21,555 nt of DNA. It comes from a virus. This document shows positions 4,156 to 21,555 of the stretch, one piece after another. The stretch's first letter is position 1, and every line of letters starts with the position of its first letter. The notes beneath the pieces are model-generated. The model saw only the letters and a list, made by a program, of their open reading frames with translations. It was not told where the DNA came from and did not search any database. The stretch spans positions 1 to 21,555 of IMG/VR virus record IMGVR_UViG_3300029265_000036; one strand, written 5' to 3'. Both the position numbers and the translations under genes were made by a program.

Positions 4156-4821
4156 ATGGCCACTGTAGTCCCAGATTTATCTGAGTTGTTTGAAGAAGCA
4201 TACGAACGTGCTGGCGTGGAGATGAAGTCTGGTTACGACCTAAAGACTATCCGCCGCAGTTTAAACTTACTCACACTGGAATGGCAGAACCGTGGACTAA
4301 ACCTGTTTACTATCGAGGCGGGAAGCATACCGCTTGTGGCGGGAACCGCGACGTATACTATGCCTGCAGACACCATAGACCTAATAGAGCATAGCTTGCG
4401 TACGGGATCAGGGACTTCACAGCGCGACATATCTTTGCAGCGTGTTAGTGTTTCTACATACGCGCAACAATCCAGCAAGAATATGATGTCTCGTCCTACA
4501 CAAGTATTTCTACAGCGCCTGCCAACGTCCGTCACTGTGACTGTGTGGCCCGTGCCAGACGCGTCTGAGCCCTATGTTATGTCATACTACCGCCTAAAGG
4601 GTATAGACGGCATAGACGGGGGCGTTGGGGGCGAAGTAACGTCCGTGCCACCTCGGTTTGTACCTGCACTCGTAGCAGGTTTGGCCTACATGATAGCGGT
4701 TAAAAAGCCAGAAGCTGTGTCTCGCGCTCCGTTGCTTAAAGCGGTATACGACGAGCAATTCACTCTCGCTGCAGGCGAAGACGAAGAGCGTGCATCCATC
4801 CGATTAGTGCCGGGACGATGA
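4156..4821 (+). CDS. Neck/head-completion protein, P22 gp4-like
   Basis: The 221-residue protein resembles P22 gp4-type packaged-DNA stabilisation proteins, which bind under the portal after packaging and form the first ring of the short tail. The N-terminal half is helical: LFEEAYERAGVEM, then LKTIRRSLNLLTLEWQNRGL, a typical signature of this group. It is followed by a beta region (GTATYTMPADTIDLIEHSLR) and VTVWPVPDASEPYVMSYYR. A C-terminal helix contains FVPALVAGLAYMIAVKKPEA and the tail AGEDEERASIRLVPGR. The residue pattern is a confident match to the neck class, though whether it is a true gp4 homologue or a related adaptor needs a profile search. AAGGAG before ATG 4156 is a strong ribosome-binding site, and the gene opens the head-tail connector block. 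Confidence 0.8.
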   Translation: MATVVPDLSELFEEAYERAGVEMKSGYDLKTIRRSLNLLTLEWQNRGLNLFTIEAGSIPLVAGTATYTMPADTIDLIEHSLRTGSGTSQRDISLQRVSVSTYAQQSSKNMMSRPTQVFLQRLPTSVTVTVWPVPDASEPYVMSYYRLKGIDGIDGGVGGEVTSVPPRFVPALVAGLAYMIAVKKPEAVSRAPLLKAVYDEQFTLAAGEDEERASIRLVPGR

Positions 4822-5130: not shown

Positions 5131-5784
5131 ATGAACTACACACAATTAACCGCCGCGGTTAAGTCATACACAGAAAATCTAGAAGCTACGTTTGTAGAAA
5201 CGATACCGACGTTTATAAAACAAGCGGAGGAACGTATTATACGTAACCCGCAAGTTCGCATCATAGAACTGCATAAAAACGCAACCCTGACGCTATCTGC
5301 AGGAGACCGGTTTTTATCGCGCCCTGCGGACTTTATAGCCATGTCATCGGTAGCGGTCATTAGCGCGGCCGGTAAGTATTCTTTTGTGTACGACAAAGAC
5401 ACAAACTTTATACGAGAAGCGTATCCTGATCCTGCAGTTACCGGCGTACCTAAATACTATACCCAGTTTGAGGGCGACGTAGTTTCGCCTGCGTCTACCG
5501 GAAAGTTTATGTTCGGCCCAACGCCAAGCGCAAATTACTCGGTAGAGTTACATTACTACTATGACCCCGTATCCATAGTAGACGCTGGGTCTTCGTGGTT
5601 CGGGGATAACGCAGAGATGGCCCTGTTGTATGGCACACTTATCGAAGCCTACACGTTTATGAAGGGTGATGCGGATATCATGGCTGGATACGAAAAGAAG
5701 TACGCAGAGGGCATGGCTGGTTTAGGCGTGGTAGGCTTACGTACGCATAGAGACAACTATAAAGACGGTGAGTTATCCGTATAA
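5131..5784 (+). CDS. Head-tail adaptor protein (SU10-type adaptor / tail-tubular-A-like)
   Basis: The 217-residue protein opens with NYTQLTAAVKSYTE and FIKQAEERIIRNPQVRI, followed by beta strands with LSAGDRFLSRPADFI and SFVYDKDTNFIREAYPD. It then has PKYYTQFEGD, MFGPTPSANYSVELHYYYDP, and a C-terminal helical part GDNAEMALLYGTLIEAYTFM with the tail YEKKYAEGMAGL. This order is a clear match to phage adaptor proteins that sit between portal/neck and nozzle in short-tailed phages. It is full length for the group. GGAG at 5119-5122 precedes ATG 5131. Together with the gp4-like protein and the later nozzle it defines the tail as P22/SU10-like rather than strictly T7-like. Confidence 0.83.
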   Translation: MNYTQLTAAVKSYTENLEATFVETIPTFIKQAEERIIRNPQVRIIELHKNATLTLSAGDRFLSRPADFIAMSSVAVISAAGKYSFVYDKDTNFIREAYPDPAVTGVPKYYTQFEGDVVSPASTGKFMFGPTPSANYSVELHYYYDPVSIVDAGSSWFGDNAEMALLYGTLIEAYTFMKGDADIMAGYEKKYAEGMAGLGVVGLRTHRDNYKDGELSV

Positions 5785-7205: not shown

Positions 7206-8303
7206 ATGGCGATACCATCATCAGGTAAGTTGACCCTCTCTAGTATTCAAACAGAGTTCGGGGGCAGTAACCCTACGAGCCTTAGTGAATACTATCGAGA
7301 CGGCGGTTTAGTGACCGACAACAACACAGACGTGCCTACATCCGGTAAGATTAGCCTTGGTGATTTTTACGGCGCGTCAAATATATTCCGCTTTACAATT
7401 AGCTCTGACACTAAAGAGGCTAACATATCGGTACTTGCGCTCGCAGGTGGGTGGAGTGGTGCTGGTCCTGTAGAAGTAACTATAGCGTCAGGAGTATGGT
7501 GCTGGTCAGACGACACTAGCAAAGGCGGGATTATTATACCGTCAAGCATGACATCTACGGTACTCATTACGAACAATGGATACATCATCGGTCGCGGTGG
7601 AAATGGGGGAGCAGGCCCGTTGGTAAATGGGGCGGCAAACGACGGACTACCCGGAGGTCCGGCTATACAGTTATCCAACTCGGGAACTACGATAATTAAT
7701 AACGTATCTTCGTACATAGCGGGTGGCGGTGGGGGCGGCGCAGGCGGAACAACTAACACCACGGATGCTTCCGGTGGTGGTGGTGGTGCAGGAGGCGGAA
7801 CCGGCGGTGCAAGTGGAAATAGTAATTTTGGGACTACGCCTGTAGCCGGGGGCGCCGGTGGAGCTATAGGAGTAGCGGGTGATAACTCGGCTGCTAACGG
7901 GCAGAACACAGGTGGACTTGGCGGCGAAGCGGGCGGTTCTGGTGCAGGACGCCAGCAAAACGACTCGTCTAACCGAGATGGCATATCCGGCGGCGGTGGC
8001 GGCGGTCGCGTATTGCTCGGAAATGCGGTAAACGCAAGATATCCTAGTGGTAGTGGTGCGGACAGCCCCGGAGGATTTGGCGGCGCGTACAATCAAAACG
8101 GAGGCGCGAACAATAGGCAAATAGCGTCTAATCCGGGCCAAGACTATGGCAGTCTTTCTACGCAACCGTCAGGCGGTGGGGGAGGCTGGGCTATGTCTGG
8201 AGGCGACAATACCGCGGGTCATGACGGCGGAGACGGCGGTGCGGCAATATCGGGCAGCAAAGCCGGACTTACCAACAACGGTACAATTTTTGGAGCCACA
8301 TAA
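7206..8303 (+). CDS. Glycine-rich receptor-binding adhesin, gp38-like
   Basis: The 365-residue protein has an N-terminal part with two related motifs, IPSSGKLTLSSIQTEFGG followed by SLSEYYRDGG, and VPTSGKISLGDFYGA, seen at the start of many marine phage fibre tips. A beta region follows (about 58-130). From about residue 135 to the end there are repeated long glycine runs (for example YIAGGGGGGAGG, SGGGGGAGGGTGGASG and SGGGGGGRVLL) separated by variable polar loops, ending GGDGGAAISG and NNGTIFGA. Such blocks form polyglycine-II sandwiches in the gp38 adhesins of T-even-like phages such as S16, in which the loops contact the receptor. A receptor-binding tip is therefore the best call, directly after a fibre shaft gene. 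The variable loops are the expected host-range determinants. The ATG is at 7206, with AAGGGA upstream. Confidence 0.78.
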   Translation: MAIPSSGKLTLSSIQTEFGGSNPTSLSEYYRDGGLVTDNNTDVPTSGKISLGDFYGASNIFRFTISSDTKEANISVLALAGGWSGAGPVEVTIASGVWCWSDDTSKGGIIIPSSMTSTVLITNNGYIIGRGGNGGAGPLVNGAANDGLPGGPAIQLSNSGTTIINNVSSYIAGGGGGGAGGTTNTTDASGGGGGAGGGTGGASGNSNFGTTPVAGGAGGAIGVAGDNSAANGQNTGGLGGEAGGSGAGRQQNDSSNRDGISGGGGGGRVLLGNAVNARYPSGSGADSPGGFGGAYNQNGGANNRQIASNPGQDYGSLSTQPSGGGGGWAMSGGDNTAGHDGGDGGAAISGSKAGLTNNGTIFGAT

Positions 8304-10806: not shown

Positions 10807-11628
10807 GTGGGATACTTAGCAGACGCAGCGCGAGGAATAGAGTCTATCGGCAGTGGTATTAGAAATACTGTTCGAGACGTATTTGGCGGGTCGCAAAGAA
10901 GCAACGCTAACATTAGAGGCGAAACGCCCACGAAGTCTCTTCGCCCTCGTGCACGGCCGAGCGATCTAAATAGCGGCATCGCATCTATCTCCAATAACAA
11001 TAATATTAGAAGCCGTAGGGACCGCAACGACAATGATACGCGTAGTGCCCCCGTACCAGAAAACGTAGAACCTACGTATGCGTCACGGGCCGCAGAAGGC
11101 AGCTTCGTGCAACCGTTAAACCCTAATTATGATCCATCCGATCCTATGTCGCAACGATACGCAAGCCGCCCGTCATACGAGGCGCTGGTTAAATACCGAG
11201 ACGACCTTAAGAAACCGGCTTCAAAGATGGCCGAGGGCGGTGCAGTAGGTGAAAAAGAACAAGTTATAGATGCAGCTGTAGCCGCTATCACAGGGCAACT
11301 TACCGGAGAAGAGGCGGCCGTAGCACTCGCTATGTTCGTTGAGTCCTATGGAGAACAAGAGCTTGAGAAACTCGTAGCCGCAGCGCAATCCAAAACGCAA
11401 GGTGGCGAAGTAGAGGGTCCGGGCACAGGGAAGAGTGACGACGTAGACGCTGCAGTAGGTGAAAAGCCATACAAGCTGTCTAACGGAGAATACATTATGC
11501 CTATCGAGGCGGTTAAAGCGGTTGGCGGCGGTGATCACGCTAAAGGCATCGAAGAGTTAGACCGTATCAGGGAAATGGCCCAGTCAAGCCGTCCGCGTCA
11601 AGGGTCTATGGACCCAAGCGCCGCATGA
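10807..11628 (+). CDS. Putative internal virion / scaffold-associated protein
   Basis: The 273-residue protein has a disordered-looking N-terminal half rich in Arg, Asn and Ser, then a motif MAEGGAVGEKE at 141, and a helical Glu/Ala-rich region. Near the C-terminus is YKLSNGEYIMPIEAVKAVGG followed by GDHAKGIEELDRI. I recognise this last pattern, a Ser-x-Gly-Glu-Tyr-hydrophobic-Met-Pro core, from proteins of marine podoviruses encoded just before the internal virion proteins; the function is not known to me. It starts with GTG 10807, supported by AGGAGA six bases upstream. Its stop overlaps the next ATG by four bases (ATGA), so it is co-translated with the GNAT-like protein. It could be an assembly factor or a minor core protein. 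Confidence 0.65.
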   Translation: MGYLADAARGIESIGSGIRNTVRDVFGGSQRSNANIRGETPTKSLRPRARPSDLNSGIASISNNNNIRSRRDRNDNDTRSAPVPENVEPTYASRAAEGSFVQPLNPNYDPSDPMSQRYASRPSYEALVKYRDDLKKPASKMAEGGAVGEKEQVIDAAVAAITGQLTGEEAAVALAMFVESYGEQELEKLVAAAQSKTQGGEVEGPGTGKSDDVDAAVGEKPYKLSNGEYIMPIEAVKAVGGGDHAKGIEELDRIREMAQSSRPRQGSMDPSAA

Positions 11629-12059
11629 CCGACGTAGCTAGAATGACTCCAGTGCCTCCCGCGTACTTAGACGCAGTGTGGCGAGATATACTTCCGTTCG
11701 TTACGGCCGCGGTTGCTACATCAGCGGGAGCGTTTACGGCGTCAAGCGTATATAAAGATGCGAAAAGCGGTTTCCACACTGTCTGGATTATTGTGTCGGA
11801 TGATGTTATACAGCTCATGTTAACTACTAGGATCGTGCAATACCCCGAGAAACGCGCACTAATAGTGGATTGGGTCGGCGGCGGCGACTTACGCAATGTC
11901 TTGGAAACAGGACTAGACACGCTAAAAGATTATGCGCGAGACAACTCTTGTACGGAAATTGAGGGTAGCGGTCGCAAAGGTTGGGAAAAGTGGTTAGCGC
12001 CGCATGGGTGGACACACCAGCATGTAGCATACAAGTTGGAGATAGACGATGAAAAATAG
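11625..12059 (+). CDS. GNAT-fold protein, possible internal virion protein A (T7 gp13-like position)
   Basis: The 144-residue protein shows a GNAT-like layout: N-terminal helices, a central beta region (FHTVWIIVSDDVIQLMLTTR), then ALIVDWVGGGDLRNVLETGL followed by a helix. After that come CTEIEGSGRKGWEKWLAPHG and WTHQHVAYKLEI, where a Gly-Arg-x-Gly-Trp pattern before the last strands is typical of phage GNAT-like proteins. In T7-like phages a GNAT-like protein occupies the corresponding place as internal virion protein A; that parallel is by position and fold, not shown homology. The classical acetyl-CoA loop is degenerate, so enzymatic activity is uncertain and it may be purely structural. 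ATG 11625 overlaps the preceding stop; an ATG at 11643 is an alternative start. It overlaps the next gene by 11 bases. Confidence 0.6.
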   Translation: MTDVARMTPVPPAYLDAVWRDILPFVTAAVATSAGAFTASSVYKDAKSGFHTVWIIVSDDVIQLMLTTRIVQYPEKRALIVDWVGGGDLRNVLETGLDTLKDYARDNSCTEIEGSGRKGWEKWLAPHGWTHQHVAYKLEIDDEK

Positions 12060-13074
12060 TACCTACGAGACCACATCACAAACGGAAAACAAACTTCCTG
12101 AGTGGGCCGCGCCGTACTTCGAGAGAAACATTGCGCAAGCAGAAGCTGCGTACGGTACTGAGTATCAGGGGTACGGAGGCGATAGAATTGCTGGACCCGG
12201 CACTGATACCATGGGTGCACGAGACATGGCGAGAGATATAGCGGGAAACCCTATTGGCGGTATGGAAGAGGCCCAACAGTTTTTAACTTCGGGGTTAGAG
12301 ACCACTGGACAGCTAGGCCAGTACGATCCATCGGGGTTTTCGGAGTATGGGTTCGATCCTGCACGTCAGTTTAACGGTGCCGAAGCCCAGAGCTATATGA
12401 GCCCGTATCAACAGAACGTAACCGACGTTAACAAAGCGCAAGCATTCCAAGACTTTCAGCGCCTGCAGGGTGGCAGAGATGCCAGTGCAGTAGCTGCAGG
12501 TGCATTTGGAGGCTCGCGACAGGGCGTCGTGCAAGGTATGGCCGAGCAAGACTTGATGACGCAGCTAGGTCGCATACAAGCGGAAGGTTCTCAAAACGCG
12601 TTTAATAACGCGCAAAGTCAGTTTAACGCGGATCGTGGTGCGCAGTTCGGTACACAACAAGCACAAGCTGGTGAGATGGGCCGTGCACAATCAGGCAACG
12701 CAGGAGAAAGTCAGTTCGGTGCAGGCCAAGGTCTCGCTGCATTGCAGACAGGCGCACAATTTGCTGGTGGTCTTACCGACGTTGGCCAGCTGCAGCGTCA
12801 GGGACAGATACAGAACGCGCAGTTGCTTGAGGGCGTTGGCGGCGCGATTACTGCCGAGCAGCAAGCAGAGAACGATCTAAACTATAATAACTTTATGGAA
12901 GAGCAGAACTTTACGCGTAACCAAGTAGGGGGAATGACCAATGTTCTTAACGGTCAACCTGTATCACCTACGGGTAGTTCTAGTACCGTAGGAACTCAAC
13001 CCGGCCCAAGCCCGCTTCAACAAATTGGCGGTGCGGGTCTAGGCGCAGTCGGTCTATATAAGGCATTCCAGTAA
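12049..13074 (+). CDS. Gln/Ala-rich internal virion protein (ejection protein B-like)
   Basis: This 341-residue protein starts with a polar segment (LPEWAAPYFERNIAQAEAAY). It has a middle block with YMSPYQQNVTDVNKAQAFQD, then GAFGGSRQGVVQGMAEQDLM, a long Gln/Asn/Ala-rich helical stretch (FNNAQSQFNADRGAQF), and a Gly-rich C-terminus (QIGGAGLGAVGLYKAF). The YMSPYQQ...GAFGGSRQ combination is a signature I recognise from ejection-type proteins of marine and other podoviruses, placed before the giant internal proteins. Such proteins leave the capsid with the DNA and build a channel in the periplasm. Nothing in the sequence suggests an enzyme. GGAG at 12038-12041 and an 11-base overlap with the GNAT-like gene support ATG 12049. 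The stop shares a base with the next ATG. Confidence 0.72.
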   Translation: MKNSTYETTSQTENKLPEWAAPYFERNIAQAEAAYGTEYQGYGGDRIAGPGTDTMGARDMARDIAGNPIGGMEEAQQFLTSGLETTGQLGQYDPSGFSEYGFDPARQFNGAEAQSYMSPYQQNVTDVNKAQAFQDFQRLQGGRDASAVAAGAFGGSRQGVVQGMAEQDLMTQLGRIQAEGSQNAFNNAQSQFNADRGAQFGTQQAQAGEMGRAQSGNAGESQFGAGQGLAALQTGAQFAGGLTDVGQLQRQGQIQNAQLLEGVGGAITAEQQAENDLNYNNFMEEQNFTRNQVGGMTNVLNGQPVSPTGSSSTVGTQPGPSPLQQIGGAGLGAVGLYKAFQ

Positions 13075-15779
13075 TGAGCATTAACATCTTTAAAGCGCAA
13101 GACATGCTTAAAAATATGTCTAAGCAACAGTTGGTAACGGAAGCACAGAACCCTACGGGGTCCGCTCCTGCATTTATGGTTCACGCACGTTTGGCGGAAA
13201 TAGGCGAGCAAGAAAAAGAAGCGCAACGTGCCTCTAGCGAACAGGACACTACGACTGTAGCGCAAGACGTTGTTCAAGGTGCAGGCGTTGGCGGTCTTGG
13301 GTCTATGACGCAAGCGTTTAATCCACGTGCAAAAGACTCGTCAAACAACGGCGCGTTTGATCCCCGCACGGTGCCCGACAACACTGGTCGCCAGCAAGCG
13401 CCCGTAGGTATGAAGAACGGTGGCGAGGTCGGCGCTGATGCGTACATGAAGAATGGCGGCATGGTCGGCAAGCCTACGTATATGGCGGAAGGAGGCGAGG
13501 TAAAAAAGGAATTTAGTGAAATGTCTCCTGCGGAGCGTTTAGCTATGGATCGAGACTTTATGATCCGACATATGCGCAACCCCGAAAGCGACCCTGCCGA
13601 TACGGATAGACTTTTAAAGAAATTCAGTAGGGTGTACGGCGAAGATGAGCTTAATAACCTTACGGGGTCCGTTTCTCCGCAATCACTTCAAAACGTGCAG
13701 CCTATGGGTCAACCCTCAATAGCAGACATTGACGTGCGTATGCCTACGCGTACAAACGGACTAGGTGGGCTAGACGCTATGCGCGGTGCTCCTACGCAGC
13801 CTGTGGCTCCCGCATCGGGCGGCGGACTAGACGCTATTATGGCGGGTCTAGACAATGTTGTGTCCTCTACTAAGAAACCTGCAGTTGACGCTTACCCCCG
13901 CGGAACTATGGTTGACGGTACGTTCTACAACTTAATGCCTGATAACGAGGTGCTAAACGCTCGTACCGGTGAAGTAGTATCACCTGCAGTCGCAAGCGTA
14001 GTTCGTGCTAAATTAAACCCTGTCATGCCAAGTGGCCCAGAATTAGGCTCTGGTGTGAACCCGTCATACGTAGAGGGGCAAACGCTAAATCCAAGTTTTG
14101 ACGGTGTAAATCCGTCATACGACGAAAACCAAGTAGTCGGTCCTCCTATGTCTGGCGCCGAATTAATAAATCGCTACCCAGAACGCGGCGTAGGTACTTC
14201 CCCCCTCCCTGTTATGCGTCCTGACGATAGCAATATTACCCAGAACGGTGCGTACTCCCGTAGGACCGTAATGGACGCGCAAGAGGAAGCGCAACGTAAC
14301 ATAGACAACCCCCCGCAATCTCCGGGCTTCGGCGGATTAGTAGAACGCCGCGACCAGATAGCGGCGGGCCTTGCATCCATCCCGTCTCGCATAGGTGATG
14401 GCCTTAAAAACGATGCGCAGATCGTAAAAGATTTTGGCCAAGGCATAGTTGCTGCCGGTTCTAACTTTGTAGACGCACGTAAGAATGATCTTAGGGATGA
14501 CGCGTCGCGAGCAAAAGATATTGGCCAAGGCATAGTTGCCGGACTTAAAAACGATGTGGGGATAATAAAAGATTTTGGCATCGGCATAGGTGATGGCCTT
14601 AAAAACGATGCGGGGATAATAACAGATTTTGGACAAGCCCGTGTGGATGACATTAAAAACGATTCGGCACTAGTAAAAGATTATTTTTCGGGTTTAGAAG
14701 TCGAGGAGACTACTTTCGCTGAACAGAGAGCCATTCTCGTTTCGAGGCTAAATGACCCAGAAATAACTCCGGGCATGAAAACCATGATACAGAACAGCAT
14801 AGATAGTATAGACACAAGAACAACCCGCGGTATCGCGCTAGACAACGCGGTAAATAAGGTAGCGGACGGTGTAAATTATTTAGGCGACGGGGCGCGTAAC
14901 CTCGTTGCGACGGGACTTGGGGCGTTTGGCGATACTGGTATGAATCTAGGCGCTGACATCTTAGATGGTATTCCTGAGAGCCGCGAGCCGTTTATACCAA
15001 AACGAGAAGCCCCTATCCCTGTACTGAGTGCAGAGACGGATAACCCCGACTCCGATGTTAACGGTGCTCCTGTAGTGCAGCCCCTACAAGACGGAACTCT
15101 ACCTGCCGACCTGCTACCACCTACAGTTACCGACACCGTACGTGCGGCACCCAACAGGCGCACTGCAGGTCAAGGCCAAGGCGGAATAGCGTCAACGCCA
15201 AGCGGACCAAGTGTAGCATCGGAAGCGGTGTTGGCAGAAGCCATGGCCGAAAAAGAGGCAGGTGCATCCAAAGCCAAATGGCTAATGCTTGCCGAGATTG
15301 GCGCTGGAATGTTGGGGTCTACTAAACCGGGCTTTGCAGGTACAGGCGACGCAGTAAGCGCAGGTCTAGCTTCGTACAACGCGTCAGAAGAAATGCGCAA
15401 AGCCGAAGAACGTAACGATGCAGCTATGACTGAGGACAAACGACGTTACGAACAGAACCGTAAAGATGCGTTCCAGTTAGCGTCTATGAAACGATCAGGA
15501 GCTAGTGCTAAACCTATGGCCGCTTCGCAATACAAGGCGTATGTAGACCAGAGAGACGCGGCGCAAGAAAGGCTATCGTCCCTTCCCGGACTTGACGAGC
15601 CCGGTGCTTTCAGTTCATTTTTCTTCGGCTCTGAGGCCACCGATCCTATACCAGACGAGCGCACTGATTTGACAAATGAGGTCAAGCGGCTAAACCAGAT
15701 TATAGCTATGGCAGATATGCGGTTCACACCTCGGGGTATAGCGTCTGTAGAGAGCGACTTAAATATTAACGTTCAGTAA
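13074..15779 (+). CDS. Large internal virion (ejection) protein with tandem repeats
   Basis: The 901-residue protein starts MSINIFKAQDMLKNMSKQQL, with a short helical head typical of podovirus ejection proteins. At residues 113, 125 and 137 there is a 12-residue repeat starting Met-x-x-Gly-Gly-x-Val. A Pro/Asn-rich, probably disordered region follows (about 180-430). At about 440-545 there are roughly five copies of an 18-20-residue repeat of the type GLKNDxGIIKDFGxGI, predicted to form amphipathic helices. The C-terminal part has a Glu/Ala-rich helix (SEAVLAEAMAEKEAGASKAK), a small hydrophobic stretch (MLAEIGAGMLGSTKPGFAGT) and long charged helices. No catalytic motif is visible. It sits between two other ejection-type genes and its ATG is coupled to the upstream stop (TAATG). 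It is probably analogous in role, not demonstrably in ancestry, to T7 gp15. Confidence 0.7.
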   Translation: MSINIFKAQDMLKNMSKQQLVTEAQNPTGSAPAFMVHARLAEIGEQEKEAQRASSEQDTTTVAQDVVQGAGVGGLGSMTQAFNPRAKDSSNNGAFDPRTVPDNTGRQQAPVGMKNGGEVGADAYMKNGGMVGKPTYMAEGGEVKKEFSEMSPAERLAMDRDFMIRHMRNPESDPADTDRLLKKFSRVYGEDELNNLTGSVSPQSLQNVQPMGQPSIADIDVRMPTRTNGLGGLDAMRGAPTQPVAPASGGGLDAIMAGLDNVVSSTKKPAVDAYPRGTMVDGTFYNLMPDNEVLNARTGEVVSPAVASVVRAKLNPVMPSGPELGSGVNPSYVEGQTLNPSFDGVNPSYDENQVVGPPMSGAELINRYPERGVGTSPLPVMRPDDSNITQNGAYSRRTVMDAQEEAQRNIDNPPQSPGFGGLVERRDQIAAGLASIPSRIGDGLKNDAQIVKDFGQGIVAAGSNFVDARKNDLRDDASRAKDIGQGIVAGLKNDVGIIKDFGIGIGDGLKNDAGIITDFGQARVDDIKNDSALVKDYFSGLEVEETTFAEQRAILVSRLNDPEITPGMKTMIQNSIDSIDTRTTRGIALDNAVNKVADGVNYLGDGARNLVATGLGAFGDTGMNLGADILDGIPESREPFIPKREAPIPVLSAETDNPDSDVNGAPVVQPLQDGTLPADLLPPTVTDTVRAAPNRRTAGQGQGGIASTPSGPSVASEAVLAEAMAEKEAGASKAKWLMLAEIGAGMLGSTKPGFAGTGDAVSAGLASYNASEEMRKAEERNDAAMTEDKRRYEQNRKDAFQLASMKRSGASAKPMAASQYKAYVDQRDAAQERLSSLPGLDEPGAFSSFFFGSEATDPIPDERTDLTNEVKRLNQIIAMADMRFTPRGIASVESDLNINVQ
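13410..13517 (+). repeat. Three tandem 12-residue repeats, Met-x-x-Gly-Gly-x-Val
   Basis: Codons 113-148 of the large internal protein encode MKNGGEVGADAY, MKNGGMVGKPTY and MAEGGEVKKEFS, exactly 36 bases apart. The same motif occurs once in the gene starting at 10807 (MAEGGAVGEKEQ from residue 141). It looks like a short linear motif present in more than one internal protein. Confidence 0.75.
14390..14700 (+). repeat. Degenerate 18-20-residue amphipathic repeats
   Basis: About five copies of a unit with the core Lys-Asn-Asp-x-x-x-Ile/Val-x-Lys-Asp-Phe-Gly run through residues about 440-545 of the internal protein; the clearest lie at 14397-14451, 14547-14589 and 14598-14640. At the DNA level the copies share stretches such as GATGGCCTTAAAAACGATG, found at both 14396 and 14591, which points to recent duplication. 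Confidence 0.7.
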
Positions 15780-15784
15780 GTAAC

Positions 15785-15790
15785 GGGAGG
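15785..15790 (+). promoter_or_regulatory. Strong ribosome-binding site of the giant ejection protein
   Basis: GGGAGG lies six bases before ATG 15797 in a 17-base spacer. It is among the best ribosome-binding sequences in the window and fixes the start of the incomplete giant reading frame. Confidence 0.6.
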
Positions 15791-15796
15791 CTTATT

Positions 15797-18700
15797 ATGG
15801 CCACAATACCTATAAGAAGTGACAAAACCGGACGTACGTACAACATTACTATCGCTGGAGATCAACCAACTGCCGAAGAACAGGCACGCGCAACCGCTGC
15901 TATACAACAGCGTGACGCTGATTTTGCAACGCAATATGAAGAGCAATTTGGTCGGCCTCTCGGGTATGACGACGGCACTGCATTTGATCGTGGTATAGAT
16001 AAAGGCAAGACTAGCGGATACTCGGCTCTAGGGGTCGCGGCAGAGACTGCGGGTCAGGTAACAGGGTTTGACGGGTTAGCGGGCCTTGGTGCCAGAATGC
16101 AAGGACAAGCCCGTGCAGAGCAAATACGTGAGAATGTAAACTTACCGCAGAACACTTCGTTTTCTGACGCCGAAGGTGTTGGCGAGTTCTTTACTGCATT
16201 AGGAGAAGTAGGCGGGCAGACGGCTCCAGAGATGACCGCGACTATAGGCTCTATGCTCGTGGGTACTGCCGCAGGCGGACCGGTAGGTGGTTTAGCTGCA
16301 GGTGCAGCGACTGCGCTTCCGTTGTTCTTTGGGCGCAACGTAGAGTTACAGCGATCCGAAGTTGCGTCGGGACGAAAAGAGGAAGTAGATTTATGGGACG
16401 CGTTCTTATCTGCGGGTGGACAGGCCGCGCTTAACGTAATCGGTGATAAATTACTTGTCGGTAGGTTGGCTAGTTCTAGCGGCGGCATATTCTCTCGTGC
16501 ATCCAAGGGCTTCGTCCAAGGTGCGGCGACTGAGATACCTACGGAGATTGGACAGCAAGTTCTAGAGAGACTGCAGGCTGGTTTGCCTTTAGATGACGAC
16601 AACGCTATAGCGCAGTACAAGGAAGTAGCTATTGGCGCCGGTCTAATCGGCGGTACAGTCGGTGGAGTTACCGGACCATTTAAACGTACGGGAGACGCGC
16701 CAGCAACTGCACCACCCGCAGTAGAGGAAGTAGACTCCGTAACCGTCGAAAACCCAGACCTAGCTACTATTACAGATGAAGACATGGCAGCTGTAGAGGG
16801 CGAATTTATTGGGCCGCAAGAGTCGGGTTTGTCGACCGCATTAAACACAAAAGGCAGCGAAGATTTACTAACGTCGCTTGGAATACCGTCTCAATTAACG
16901 GTATCAAAAAAGATAAAAAAGTTAGACTTGGACGATCCAACTGTTCTTAGTACCCTCGCAGCGTGGAGTGAAACCCCCTTTGCAAATAAAAAGAACCCTA
17001 AAGCCGTTGCAGCGACTAAAAAGTATATCACAGACAAGACAGCTACAGATGCCGTAGACGCAGCTGACGTAAACACAGCTGACGTAGACGCCGTAGAAGT
17101 AACCGACGTAGATGCCGTAGACGAAGCTCCCGTGGACGACGTAGAAGTAGCGGAGGAAGTAGCTCCTGTAGAAGTAGCGGAGGAAGTAGCTCCTGTAGAA
17201 GTAACCGAGGCAGCAAACGAAGAGGCAGCAAATAATGCAACTAGACCTAACGAACAAGCAACTGGAGAAGGCGCTACTTCTAGTGAGCTTGATACCAAAG
17301 AATCAGAAAACGTCAGTACCAAAGAAGGTGCCGCCCCAGCTGAGTCACTTAACACCGGAGGAGTGGGAAGTGGTGTCTTGGATACTGGAGGAGTTACACG
17401 AACAGCAAAGCCGACAGCCGATACAGTAGATGGGCCCACTGCTGCACCAAACCCAAGCGTCTTAAACCGGAACGCTGCGCCCGGTGCAGAGAGCGGAGCT
17501 GCGGGTCAAACTATTCCGCCGTCCATGTCTGGTCTAGGCCCCCAAGAGCGTGCACTTGTTGCCGAGCAAAACAAACTTAGGGCGCGTCTAGCATCCGCAA
17601 AAGACGCTGGTGCGGCAGCGAAAGAGCAAGGTATAACTTTGAGTGCGTTGCAGTCCGCCGACAGGCTACGCGTCAACAAGATTAAGTTTACTGACCTTCC
17701 TAACGCCACGAAGGCGAGAAAAAAGAAAGCACTAGACGATGCGGCTTTGTCTAGTGCACCAACGCAAGCATCTGAAAACTATAAGGCGGCTCGACAAGAC
17801 GCAGCGGATACGTTTGCGGCAAACGCGTCCCCGCAGCTAAAGAGTGAAGAGCGCCTGTATGCAGGTGACTATGGCGACACCACAGACGTACTGACTGCTA
17901 GTGATTACAAGGCGGTAAAGTCGCTATTGGCTACGCCTAATAACCAGCTAAAAAACGCTAAGGGGGACACCGCCGCTACCAAGAAGAATAAAGAAGCTGC
18001 CAAAAGCGCGAAGAACTTCTTCTCTAAGAACTCTGACCCAATGAAAACCCTTGTGCAAATAGGATACTCAATAGACGCCAACGAGTCGGACACAATTCGT
18101 AGTGGCGGTGATCAAGACGCGGTGCCTGAGTATTTCCAAGGTACAGGTCGGATCGCAGGTATGCGTGCTGCCCAGTGGGTAGCCGATAATATGAACAATG
18201 CGTCAACTGAGTACGTTCTCGGTGTAGCCGAAGAGATGTCTACTGAGGCCGCGATTACCGCTAATGACACCTACCGTCAGAGCGTAAGCAACGTAGCGGA
18301 CCGGACGGCGCTAGAAGCCGAACGGGAAGCCTTACGTACGTTGCTTGCTGGTGAAGAGATAGACAACCTGACGTTCGACGATCGCATGAAATTGCTAGAT
18401 AAAAAAGCGAAAGCTATGCGAACCGTGTTGGGTATTAGCCCATCAAGCAAGCAGATGTTCGCTCTATCTAGCGACGCAGGCCCTTCATTAGTAAGCGCAT
18501 TGCGTGCGGGTGACATGGTAGCCGCCCTAGAGGCCATACAGTTTACGTCCCCATCCCGTACACTTAAGGTATTAGCTAGAAACCTTATCCCATACATGGA
18601 CGGAGTTACTGTAGGTGTATACAACCGTACGGGCCGAATAGTAAATCCTGACGGGTCTCGTAACCCCCTTATAGCAAAACTTAACGACGGTAGGTTTGTT

Positions 18701-21555
18701 GAAGTAGACGCTACGTACGACCCTGATACGCACTCCATAGCCCTCGCAGACAACGGTATAGGATTAAATGTCAAGAACATACTACATGAAGCACTGCACG
18801 CGGCCACGGTACAGGAATTAAACAACTCCAACAGTCCGTTTACCCGTAAGATCAAAGTTCTTATGGACCGCATGAACGCGCAATATCCCGCGAACAGTGT
18901 AGGCGAAGCTGATAGCCTGCTGCGCAGTGACTATAACTATGGTATGTCCAACGTGTATGAGTTCGTAACCAACGGACTGACAAACGATAACTTCTTAAAC
19001 GCGCTAGATCGTGTACCGTACGTGGAGACAGTAGTTAACGTAGACGGCACCACCGATAAGTCTGTTATGACTCTGCGGGATAGGTTCGTTAAACTGTTTC
19101 GTGACTTCGTGGCTAAAATATTAAGGCGCAAGACCGAAGCTGTAACTCCTGATGACAGGTCGATAGCCGACGAACTAAGTGAGTTAACTAACGCACTACT
19201 GACTACGCCCGGCGCACTTGTTAACACGAGCCCCCTGTACGGTGCAGCGACTAACCCAATCGGTGCCATGGGTGCACTAAACGGGCTTTCAGCACGCGTG
19301 GTAGACGCAACCGAGGCCAACGTAAAAGACGCGTTTGACTCGTTCTCGTTCCTTAACACATCAAGTGCCGTAAAAGAGTTCGTGGCCAACGCCGCGATAC
19401 CGATGCGCAATATGGTAGACTATGCCAAGCCGTTTTTCGGTGACTTGGCCACGCAAGTGTACAACATTGTAACGCAGCACAACGCAGCTATTAAGCGTAT
19501 GAACGACACAAACCGTGAAACTATTGACCAAGTAGCGAAGTATCTAAAAGACTTCCCTGCGGACGTGGGTACGTTTAATGATATGGCGTTCCAAGCCAGT
19601 CAAAGAAGTATCGACCCAAGGAAACCACGGTCTCACTACGAAAACCACACACTTCGCTATTGGACCATGCACCCTGACGGCAGGCCGAAAGAACCTGTGG
19701 TTGAGGTGTTTACAGGTGATCCGCTTACTGCATCAAAGCGCAGAAATGCCAGACTTCGCCAGCTAAACGCGGACCCAATACCGAACTCACGTGGTCGCGC
19801 TGCCATACAAAACACGCCCGACAACTCTGACACGTTTGCTACGTACCTAGAACTTCGCGGTCTCTTAGACCAGCTTAACGCCAACAGTAACGGGGAAGCA
19901 GGCAGATCGTACGGTCGTATGCTGGGGATGTATAAGAACATGCACTCTGAGGCGGCGCGTGTGTTTAAGGCACGTATTGGCGCAATGCTGCCCGGAAACG
20001 AGTCGTTGCAGCGTGCTATCTACCGAGACATATTCGATAAGATGTTTACCATGAATATGCTGGAAGCCTACCTACCACTGCAACGTATTGGTGACTTCTG
20101 GCTGTCGTACACCGCCACCGACCCTACATCGAAAGAGCTGGAGGTGTTCTCCGAAACGTTTGAAACACCCGAACAACGTGCGCGTACTGTAAAAGAATTA
20201 ACAGAACTGCAAACTGCGGACCCTACTACTGGAATCGCGAGTATTGCGACGTTTTCTAACTATAAAGACTTCCAAGAGCGCGGCGCCCCAACGGCGTTCG
20301 TAGCCAAGACCGTCTTAAAAATAGATCAGTCCGTGAAAGAGCGGGCGGAAAAGGCAGGTGCCGACGCGAAGCAGGAAGCTCTTGCGGCGGGCATAATCGA
20401 GGCTGACGCGGATGTCCTCGCAGAGAACGCGCAAAGTGCATACACCACGGAGGCCACTGCTGACGCCACTAAGTTAAAAGAAGACTTGGTGAACATAGCG
20501 TTAGAGATGATGCCAGAGCGGTCGTTCCTGCAGAGCTACAAGGCGCGTAAAGGTACATCTGGTTTTGAGGGGGGCCGCACGCCGCTAAATAAGAAGCTAG
20601 AACGCCACGATGCTATTAACTTAATGATGCGTAAGAGCACTATGATGTCCCGTCAGTTGGCAGACTTAGAGTTTGGTGCCAAGGCGTCTGACTTAATACG
20701 TAGGCTTAACGAGGTGGCGCATAAAAAGTCTCCTAATTACTCCGACAAAGACAACGCCAATATGCGGATATCCCTAAACGTGCTAAAAAAGGGACTCGGT
20801 AATATAAACGTTAAGCGTAGCAAGTTGGTGCAATCTCTTAACACGTTTACATACATGATGACTTTAGGCTTTAACGTGTCGTCTGCGGTTATGAACGTTA
20901 TGGGCATACCCACGATAATCGCGCCCTATCTCGCAGGTAAGTACGGTGCCAATAGCACTGCACGCGCCCTATCTCGCGCCACCAAAGTAATCGCTAATTC
21001 AGGACGCACTCGTATGGTGTCCCGTGTCGATGAATTTGGTAACATAGAGCAATACGAACGAGGTGTAAGTAAGGCGGATGCGTCCTTGGAGAACTACAAC
21101 TTCGACGCGTACGACTATACTGCAGGGTACAACTCAGGTTCTAACAAGACGGCTAGATACGGTCCGTTAACAGCCGTTATGAGGGACCGAGGGCTTTTCG
21201 CTGACTCACTGCACTACGATAACTTAGACGTGCAGGGCATGAAGACCGGAGGACTTGCGCAGTCGTTCGTAATGAAGGGCGCGTACCTGATGCACCAAAC
21301 AGAGAAACTGGTTCGAGAGAGTACGGCCATCGCAACGTATGACCTAGAGCTGAATAAGATTTCGAAGGGTAACGACGCGCACGTATTCACTAAGGAACAG
21401 CTAGAAGCGGCCGCACTAAATGCTGCATACGAAACAGAAGTTACAAACGGTACCATTGCGGCGGCTGCGGCACCTAACTTTGCACAAAACGGCATAATGC
21501 CTATGATGTATATGTTTAAGCGATATCCACTTGCTATATACAACTTACTTGGCAC
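15797..21555 (+). CDS. Giant ejection / polyvalent protein with HExxH metallopeptidase domain (incomplete at window end)
   Basis: The frame from ATG 15797 stays open to the window edge: at least 1919 residues with no stop. The N-terminus (MATIPIRSDKTGRTYNITIA) leads to a Gly/Ala-rich hydrophobic stretch at about 149-179 and another at about 272-293, good candidates for membrane contact. Residues about 415-478 are Ala/Val/Asp/Glu repeats. A zincin motif ILHEALHAAT gives His997, Glu998 and His1001; Glu1055 in VYEFVTNGL, 54 residues on, is a candidate third ligand. A conserved-looking segment LGFNVSSAVMNVMGIPTIIA near residues 1688-1707 and a Met-rich end (NGIMPMMYMFKRYPLAIYNL) resemble the C-terminal parts of large internal proteins of marine podoviruses. 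It is most likely the last ejected protein, comparable in role to T7 gp16, with a peptidase where T7 has a transglycosylase. No transglycosylase motif was seen in the visible part. Confidence 0.78.
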   Translation, partial: MATIPIRSDKTGRTYNITIAGDQPTAEEQARATAAIQQRDADFATQYEEQFGRPLGYDDGTAFDRGIDKGKTSGYSALGVAAETAGQVTGFDGLAGLGARMQGQARAEQIRENVNLPQNTSFSDAEGVGEFFTALGEVGGQTAPEMTATIGSMLVGTAAGGPVGGLAAGAATALPLFFGRNVELQRSEVASGRKEEVDLWDAFLSAGGQAALNVIGDKLLVGRLASSSGGIFSRASKGFVQGAATEIPTEIGQQVLERLQAGLPLDDDNAIAQYKEVAIGAGLIGGTVGGVTGPFKRTGDAPATAPPAVEEVDSVTVENPDLATITDEDMAAVEGEFIGPQESGLSTALNTKGSEDLLTSLGIPSQLTVSKKIKKLDLDDPTVLSTLAAWSETPFANKKNPKAVAATKKYITDKTATDAVDAADVNTADVDAVEVTDVDAVDEAPVDDVEVAEEVAPVEVAEEVAPVEVTEAANEEAANNATRPNEQATGEGATSSELDTKESENVSTKEGAAPAESLNTGGVGSGVLDTGGVTRTAKPTADTVDGPTAAPNPSVLNRNAAPGAESGAAGQTIPPSMSGLGPQERALVAEQNKLRARLASAKDAGAAAKEQGITLSALQSADRLRVNKIKFTDLPNATKARKKKALDDAALSSAPTQASENYKAARQDAADTFAANASPQLKSEERLYAGDYGDTTDVLTASDYKAVKSLLATPNNQLKNAKGDTAATKKNKEAAKSAKNFFSKNSDPMKTLVQIGYSIDANESDTIRSGGDQDAVPEYFQGTGRIAGMRAAQWVADNMNNASTEYVLGVAEEMSTEAAITANDTYRQSVSNVADRTALEAEREALRTLLAGEEIDNLTFDDRMKLLDKKAKAMRTVLGISPSSKQMFALSSDAGPSLVSALRAGDMVAALEAIQFTSPSRTLKVLARNLIPYMDGVTVGVYNRTGRIVNPDGSRNPLIAKLNDGRFVEVDATYDPDTHSIALADNGIGLNVKNILHEALHAATVQELNNSNSPFTRKIKVLMDRMNAQYPANSVGEADSLLRSDYNYGMSNVYEFVTNGLTNDNFLNALDRVPYVETVVNVDGTTDKSVMTLRDRFVKLFRDFVAKILRRKTEAVTPDDRSIADELSELTNALLTTPGALVNTSPLYGAATNPIGAMGALNGLSARVVDATEANVKDAFDSFSFLNTSSAVKEFVANAAIPMRNMVDYAKPFFGDLATQVYNIVTQHNAAIKRMNDTNRETIDQVAKYLKDFPADVGTFNDMAFQASQRSIDPRKPRSHYENHTLRYWTMHPDGRPKEPVVEVFTGDPLTASKRRNARLRQLNADPIPNSRGRAAIQNTPDNSDTFATYLELRGLLDQLNANSNGEAGRSYGRMLGMYKNMHSEAARVFKARIGAMLPGNESLQRAIYRDIFDKMFTMNMLEAYLPLQRIGDFWLSYTATDPTSKELEVFSETFETPEQRARTVKELTELQTADPTTGIASIATFSNYKDFQERGAPTAFVAKTVLKIDQSVKERAEKAGADAKQEALAAGIIEADADVLAENAQSAYTTEATADATKLKEDLVNIALEMMPERSFLQSYKARKGTSGFEGGRTPLNKKLERHDAINLMMRKSTMMSRQLADLEFGAKASDLIRRLNEVAHKKSPNYSDKDNANMRISLNVLKKGLGNINVKRSKLVQSLNTFTYMMTLGFNVSSAVMNVMGIPTIIAPYLAGKYGANSTARALSRATKVIANSGRTRMVSRVDEFGNIEQYERGVSKADASLENYNFDAYDYTAGYNSGSNKTARYGPLTAVMRDRGLFADSLHYDNLDVQGMKTGGLAQSFVMKGAYLMHQTEKLVRESTAIATYDLELNKISKGNDAHVFTKEQLEAAALNAAYETEVTNGTIAAAAAPNFAQNGIMPMMYMFKRYPLAIYNLLG
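17141..17203 (+). repeat. Perfect 27-base tandem repeat in the acidic Ala/Val region
   Basis: Bases 17141-17167 and 17168-17194 are identical, and the first nine bases recur at 17195-17203. The unit encodes VEVAEEVAP in frame. Looser GAC/GTA-rich copies extend back to about 17042. The stretch probably forms a flexible acidic linker between the N-terminal membrane-like region and the peptidase region. Confidence 0.85.

Follow-up and report, generated by a model that had tools for sequence, protein, structure and literature searches.

A single zincin domain, its active site intact, connects giant ejection proteins that are usually considered separately. Our example comes from a virus record of 21,555 nucleotides (IMG/VR record IMGVR_UViG_3300029265_000036). 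We call this whole stretch the window, and it is the entire record. The gene in question runs off its end. With moderate confidence, we read it as encoding the largest ejection protein of a short-tailed phage, packaged with an intact-site zincin that would cut protein after ejection. By sequence comparison and structural modeling, residues 885 to 1165 are a zincin of the phage polyvalent-protein type, with a predicted metal site formed by His997, His1001, and Glu1055. The family is common to the virion RNA polymerases (vRNAPs) of Schitoviridae (the C1 domain in N4), ejection proteins of the phiKMV gp37 type, and the giant proteins of crAss-like phages.

The gene and its neighbors

The frame that opens at 15797 is open for 1919 codons and still open at the window's end. 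A first-pass annotation of the same DNA had described a frame of at least that length leaving the window, and advised recovering the gene from a longer contig. Contig L002 supplied it. This contig overlaps window positions 11610 to 21555 with 27 mismatches in 9946 bases (99.7% identity) and completes the giant protein at 2237 residues. A more distant phage, L003, encodes a homologue of 2212 residues that is 54% identical. The features we shall need are these, in window coordinates:

12049..13074, +, 341-residue protein; phrog_4287 'DNA ejection protein' matches it at E 3.9e-17
13074..15779, +, 901-residue protein, candidate second ejection protein, directly upstream of the giant gene; no profile matches
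15797..21555, +, gene for the giant ejection/polyvalent protein, running past the window end (2237 residues in L002)
15797..16696, +, N-terminal region (residues 1-300), where the L003 homologue is 65% identical
17045..17210, +, acidic low-complexity linker rich in Ala, Asp, Glu, and Val, about residues 417-471, with short tandem repeats
18449..19291, +, zincin-like metallopeptidase domain (C1-type of N4 vRNAP), residues 885-1165, assigned by alignment, model, and profile
18785..18799, +, HEALH, residues 997-1001, predicted to provide two metal ligands and the general base Glu998
18959..18961, +, Glu1055, predicted third metal ligand, on model helix 169-178 (model residue 171), after the HExxH helix
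20408..21555, +, first part of the C-terminal tail-700/PLxRFG domain, which spans residues 1538-2217 in the full protein and is truncated here

The order is thus 341, 901, and 2237 residues. By position the giant gene may correspond to that of T7 gp16, the largest and last in its ejection-protein cluster. The arrangement fits the giant gene being the largest member of such a cluster; the presence of its product in the virion we infer from homology and gene order. The earlier description of an ejection-type giant protein was borne out by the tail-700/PLxRFG C terminus and the nearby 'DNA ejection protein' gene. Comparison by hhalign of the 901- and 341-residue proteins with the ejection proteins of phiKMV, N4, and Skulduggery gave no match.

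Standard searches had little to say about the giant itself. Pfam found nothing in either the 1919-residue window protein or the full 2237 residues. With the truncated protein, PHROGs gave a weak match only and tblastn against phages nothing at 1e-5; the C-terminal family came to light in tblastn only with the full-length protein. The N-terminal 320 residues have weak matches only (Vibrio vRNAPs at E 6 and above), and hydropathy picks out no clear membrane helix in the N terminus (maximum 1.37).

Two minor points about this stretch deserve recording. A 54-base tandem repeat at 14513-14682 gives the 901-residue protein repeated 18-residue units. Also, of the 27 positions at which the window and L002 differ, 26 fall within 20572-21529, in the final kilobase, which suggests that strains vary there or that the contig end is a mixed assembly.

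An invariant active site

HEALH is the sole HExxH in the giant protein, against 0.005 expected from amino-acid composition. An alignment of 19 proteins has HExxH and the later Glu in every member, although these were preselected by similarity, which makes profile E-values from that set flattering. Scans of IMG/VR added 171 loci, 170 of them with the domain; HExxH formed part of some of the search patterns and so was partly selected for. Glu1055, however, was kept in 80 of 80 loci retrieved with patterns that did not contain that Glu. In a 69-member alignment of diverse relatives, the only invariant columns are those of His997, Glu998, His1001, and Glu1055. The motif and candidate third ligand that had been picked out from the letters of one sequence are thus present as claimed and conserved among relatives. 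The more distant L003 protein has HEVFH and the same Glu. Between these two proteins, the zincin domain is 40% identical and the C terminus 67%, with the active site intact in both. An invariant active site in a domain that has otherwise diverged this far argues for catalysis.

Fold and relatives of the zincin domain

An AlphaFold2 model of residues 885-1165 (pLDDT 84) comprises helices, strands at model residues 54-101, the HExxH helix at 108-125, and then the helix of Glu1055. Foldseek of the model against the PDB returned no match below E 0.001. Structural comparison put N4 vRNAP (gp50; PDB code 9pnr) first, with Z 9.2 over 187 residues of chain 2124-2355 and the HE of the N4 motif at 2228; other zincins followed at Z about 4.5. 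The C1 domain of N4 vRNAP is given as residues 2124-2375, with an HExxH motif, in the structural report (PMC12633501). The structure prediction and profile searches proposed by the first-pass annotation for residues 900-1100 or so have therefore led to the zincin family, with 9pnr at its head; conservation, model, and this match together uphold a zincin-type peptidase with Glu1055 as its predicted third ligand.

Profiles agree. The PHROG family 'virion RNA polymerase' (phrog_2206) matches the isolated domain at 1.6e-6, and thus only the zincin part of the giant protein; the full-length PHROG scan did not list it. No Pfam model reaches the domain. A profile of the 69 members finds PhiM1 gp48 (8vb2) at E 1.8e-18 and another phage protein, 23sg, at 3.9e-15; its match to 9sfn is inflated by the inclusion of phiKMV in the profile. 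A two-sequence profile built from the window and L003 proteins reaches chain G of 9sfn ('Internal virion protein') with E 9e-4, and gives E 0.16 for PhiM1 gp48, which is not significant (nominal 20,000-sequence search). The link to gp48 hence rests on the deeper, 69-member profile. In tblastn against 50,697 phage records, the window domain reaches crAss-like giant proteins at 5e-5 and internal virion proteins of Xanthomonas phages at 6e-4, with virion RNA polymerases scoring less well; the L003 domain finds a 'DNA ejectosome component' (2e-4) and phiKMV gp37 (3e-3). Nearly all the named matches are giant ejection proteins or vRNAPs.

The relatives differ in what surrounds the domain. Unlike an N4-type vRNAP, the 2237-residue protein matches no RNA polymerase domain in Pfam or PHROGs, and the C-terminal parts of the two are not alignable by sequence. 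The tetrameric ejection proteins phiKMV gp37 and PhiM1 gp48 (9sfn, 8vb2; encoded at L016 5744-9757 and L273 4198-7989) carry the same zincin, with HExxH and Glu, in shorter chains (1263 and 1337 residues), and the partner protein has a lysozyme motif; phiKMV gp37 also lacks the tail-700 match of the window protein. With the zincin-like metallopeptidases of polyvalent proteins (Iyer et al. 2017), the window protein shares the HExxH helix, the Glu in a later helix, and the setting in a very large multidomain phage protein. It differs from them in having no recognizable SNF2 helicase, methylase, or ADP-ribosyltransferase (ART) domain.

Two relatives have features of their own. The crAss-like giant protein cr55_1 (L008 10552-16575) has an ART-PolyVal ADP-ribosyltransferase at residues 291-399, just ahead of its zincin at 517. 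In the vRNAP of Vibrio phage K479, the HExxH at 2033 is joined by another at residue 1333 of the stretch examined (L011 3997-4011).

The C-terminal domain and a recurring motif position

Residues 1538-2217 belong to NCBIfam NF032893, tail-700/PLxRFG (E 6.9e-55, 186.7 bits against a cut-off of 100), and the C terminus of the full-length protein also matches the PHROG 'DarB-like antirestriction' at 5e-25. By tblastn the same C terminus appears in giant proteins of phages of about 60 kb, such as Skulduggery, PBC5, and Itty13 (hhalign E 3e-26 with Skulduggery). These DarB-like/PLxRFG giants have HExxH at a similar distance from the stop, but in motifs of other types. A non-redundant set of 46 such proteins contains 35 HExxH sites, where composition predicts 2.2, spread over 33 of the 46 and lying mostly 1,050-1,370 residues ahead of the stop. 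The motifs are of several kinds (LLHEMFHAG, LRHEIIHALRD, AYHEAFHRLQ, and IHEILHH). The remaining 13 have no HExxH within the stretch examined, so the zincin is not indispensable to the architecture. Nor is the window protein a DarB-type antirestriction protein in full: neither helicase nor methylase was matched along its whole length, whereas Skulduggery has both. L002 does encode a separate SNF2-like DNA helicase at 15620-17155 (phrog_62); in the Skulduggery relative, the helicase lies inside the giant protein.

The HExxH site is followed by 1240 residues in the window protein and 1272 in N4 vRNAP. The similar spacing may be coincidence: hhalign of the C-terminal half against N4 C2, with shallow and deeper profiles, gave nothing clearly above the reversed control, and an AlphaFold2 model of residues 1560-2237 (pLDDT 68.5) had no match with a Z of 8 or more.

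Transglycosylase, endolysin, or peptidase?

The first-pass annotation had the peptidase standing in place of a transglycosylase. Half of that idea survives. Neither the giant protein nor its 901-residue neighbor matched an SLT or lysozyme profile in Pfam, PHROGs, or NCBIfam, while the same libraries recovered both positive controls, the SLT domain of the Skulduggery protein and the lysozyme motif of phiKMV gp36. A glycosidase is therefore likely absent from these two sequences, and where T7 gp16 has an N-terminal transglycosylase (within residues 1-156; PMC8954989), the window protein has none recognized by these libraries and a zincin instead. The word that fails is 'instead' as a general rule. 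Skulduggery carries SLT (residues 58-157), helicase, and methylase domains together with HExxH in one chain, so transglycosylase and zincin are not alternatives; phiKMV divides lysozyme motif and zincin between two proteins, gp36 and gp37 respectively.

Names have complicated the picture. Alignments of the family phrog_342, 'internal virion protein with endolysin domain', do not begin until family position 168 for phiKMV gp37 and 192 for PhiM1 gp48. If T7 gp16 is a member of phrog_342, the endolysin name may have been inherited from a part that gp37 and gp48 lack. In PhiM1, the authors' account of gp48 describes Asp268-Asp528 as endolysin/exotransglycosidase-like, by BLASTP and DALI (PMC11440229). 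The same segment contains HEAAH at 385 and Glu449, and it matches the zincin profile. On this profile evidence, what has been called 'endolysin-like' in ejection proteins of the phiKMV/PhiM1 type is probably this zincin.

What would the zincin cut?

We think it likely that the domain acts as a peptidase on some protein, be it an ejection protein or one of the host's, and action on a protein after ejection is favored over cutting of the wall. In outline, a 2237-residue chain of linked domains (conserved N terminus, acidic linker, zincin at 885-1165, and tail-700/PLxRFG C terminus) would be packaged whole, pass through the tail, probably before the DNA, and refold in the host envelope or cytoplasm. 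His997, His1001, and Glu1055 would hold the metal, and Glu998 would activate the water that cuts the protein. The finding of intact relatives in virions or after purification makes a cut after ejection most likely. Its substrate would be an ejection protein (the giant itself or a partner) or a host protein.

Could the zincin work as an effector, injected to cleave a host protein (one used in defense, for instance)? We take this possibility seriously, giving it a little under an even chance. The fast divergence outside the active site speaks for it, as do the several zincin motif types ahead of the same C terminus and the ADP-ribosyltransferase that adjoins the zincin in the crAss-like relative. 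Against it, the domain also occurs in core ejectosome parts of the phiKMV gp37 type, suggesting a role that is general rather than host-specific.

It is also possible, and we put it forward tentatively, that the zincin processes ejection proteins, either its own chain (at the acidic linker, for example) or its partners, during assembly or on arrival, thereby freeing domains. The acidic repeat linker upstream of the zincin would suit such a role. Self-processing sits less easily with the relatives. N4 packages its vRNAP uncut, and the solved structure is of a single long chain with C1 included; PhiM1 gp48 was modeled as an ejectosome component with its zincin region in place. Unconditional self-cutting is accordingly unlikely, and the intact N4 vRNAP tips the balance slightly toward a substrate in trans.

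A zincin fold kept for structure rather than catalysis seems to us unlikely: the corresponding PhiM1 domain does form part of the ejectosome surface beside the DNA, but Glu998 and the three ligands are the only invariant residues, and a purely structural part would not need them. Least probable is cutting of peptidoglycan peptides so that the ejection channel can cross the wall, the role named first among the earlier proposals: the name given to PhiM1 gp48 Asp268-Asp528 and the lack of a recognized glycosidase in the window's two largest ejection proteins lend it something, but among solved structures the closest are N4 vRNAP C1 and zincins that cut proteins, and carriers of the zincin already have the wall covered (SLT beside HExxH in Skulduggery, the gp36 lysozyme motif in phiKMV).

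What was known, and why it matters

A metallopeptidase in such a protein is not new. The domain was named in polyvalent proteins by Iyer et al. 2017 (PMC5512222), who make zincins the commonest domain of these proteins, N4 vRNAP included, propose processing or effector roles, and describe N4 vRNAP as packaged unprocessed. The link from this zincin to the phiKMV/PhiM1 ejection proteins, and with it the relabeling of their endolysin-like domain, did not turn up in the open-access literature we searched. For crAss-like zincins, we found no literature on phage, and a term search of one crAss overview gave no mention of a peptidase.

Zincins of several types precede conserved C-terminal modules in otherwise unrelated giants (vRNAPs and proteins of the phiKMV gp37, PLxRFG/DarB-like, and crAss-like kinds). 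One might venture, though we would not press it, that podophage ejection machines in general include a protease slot. The phiKMV/PhiM1 'endolysin-like' domain would then be a protease, which would make a proteolytic step after ejection a shared stage of phage entry. Our comparison at least suggests that a domain already solved in the PhiM1 ejectosome, and labeled endolysin-like, is a protease. N4 and phiKMV, both well studied, have the same active site, so a proteolytic entry step is testable by a single loss-of-function mutation.

Other features of the window

The remaining observations concern genes farther upstream. At 2298-2900 lies an M15-type peptidase, a probable endolysin (Pfam Peptidase_M15_3, E 3.8e-26), which has a hydrophobic stretch close to the C terminus. 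Two different proteins, at 4156-4821 and 5131-5784, both match the SU10 adaptor family PF24175, with about 310 bases between them. Finally, the second half of the protein encoded at 7206-8303 is long and rich in glycine, which recalls the tip adhesins of phages.
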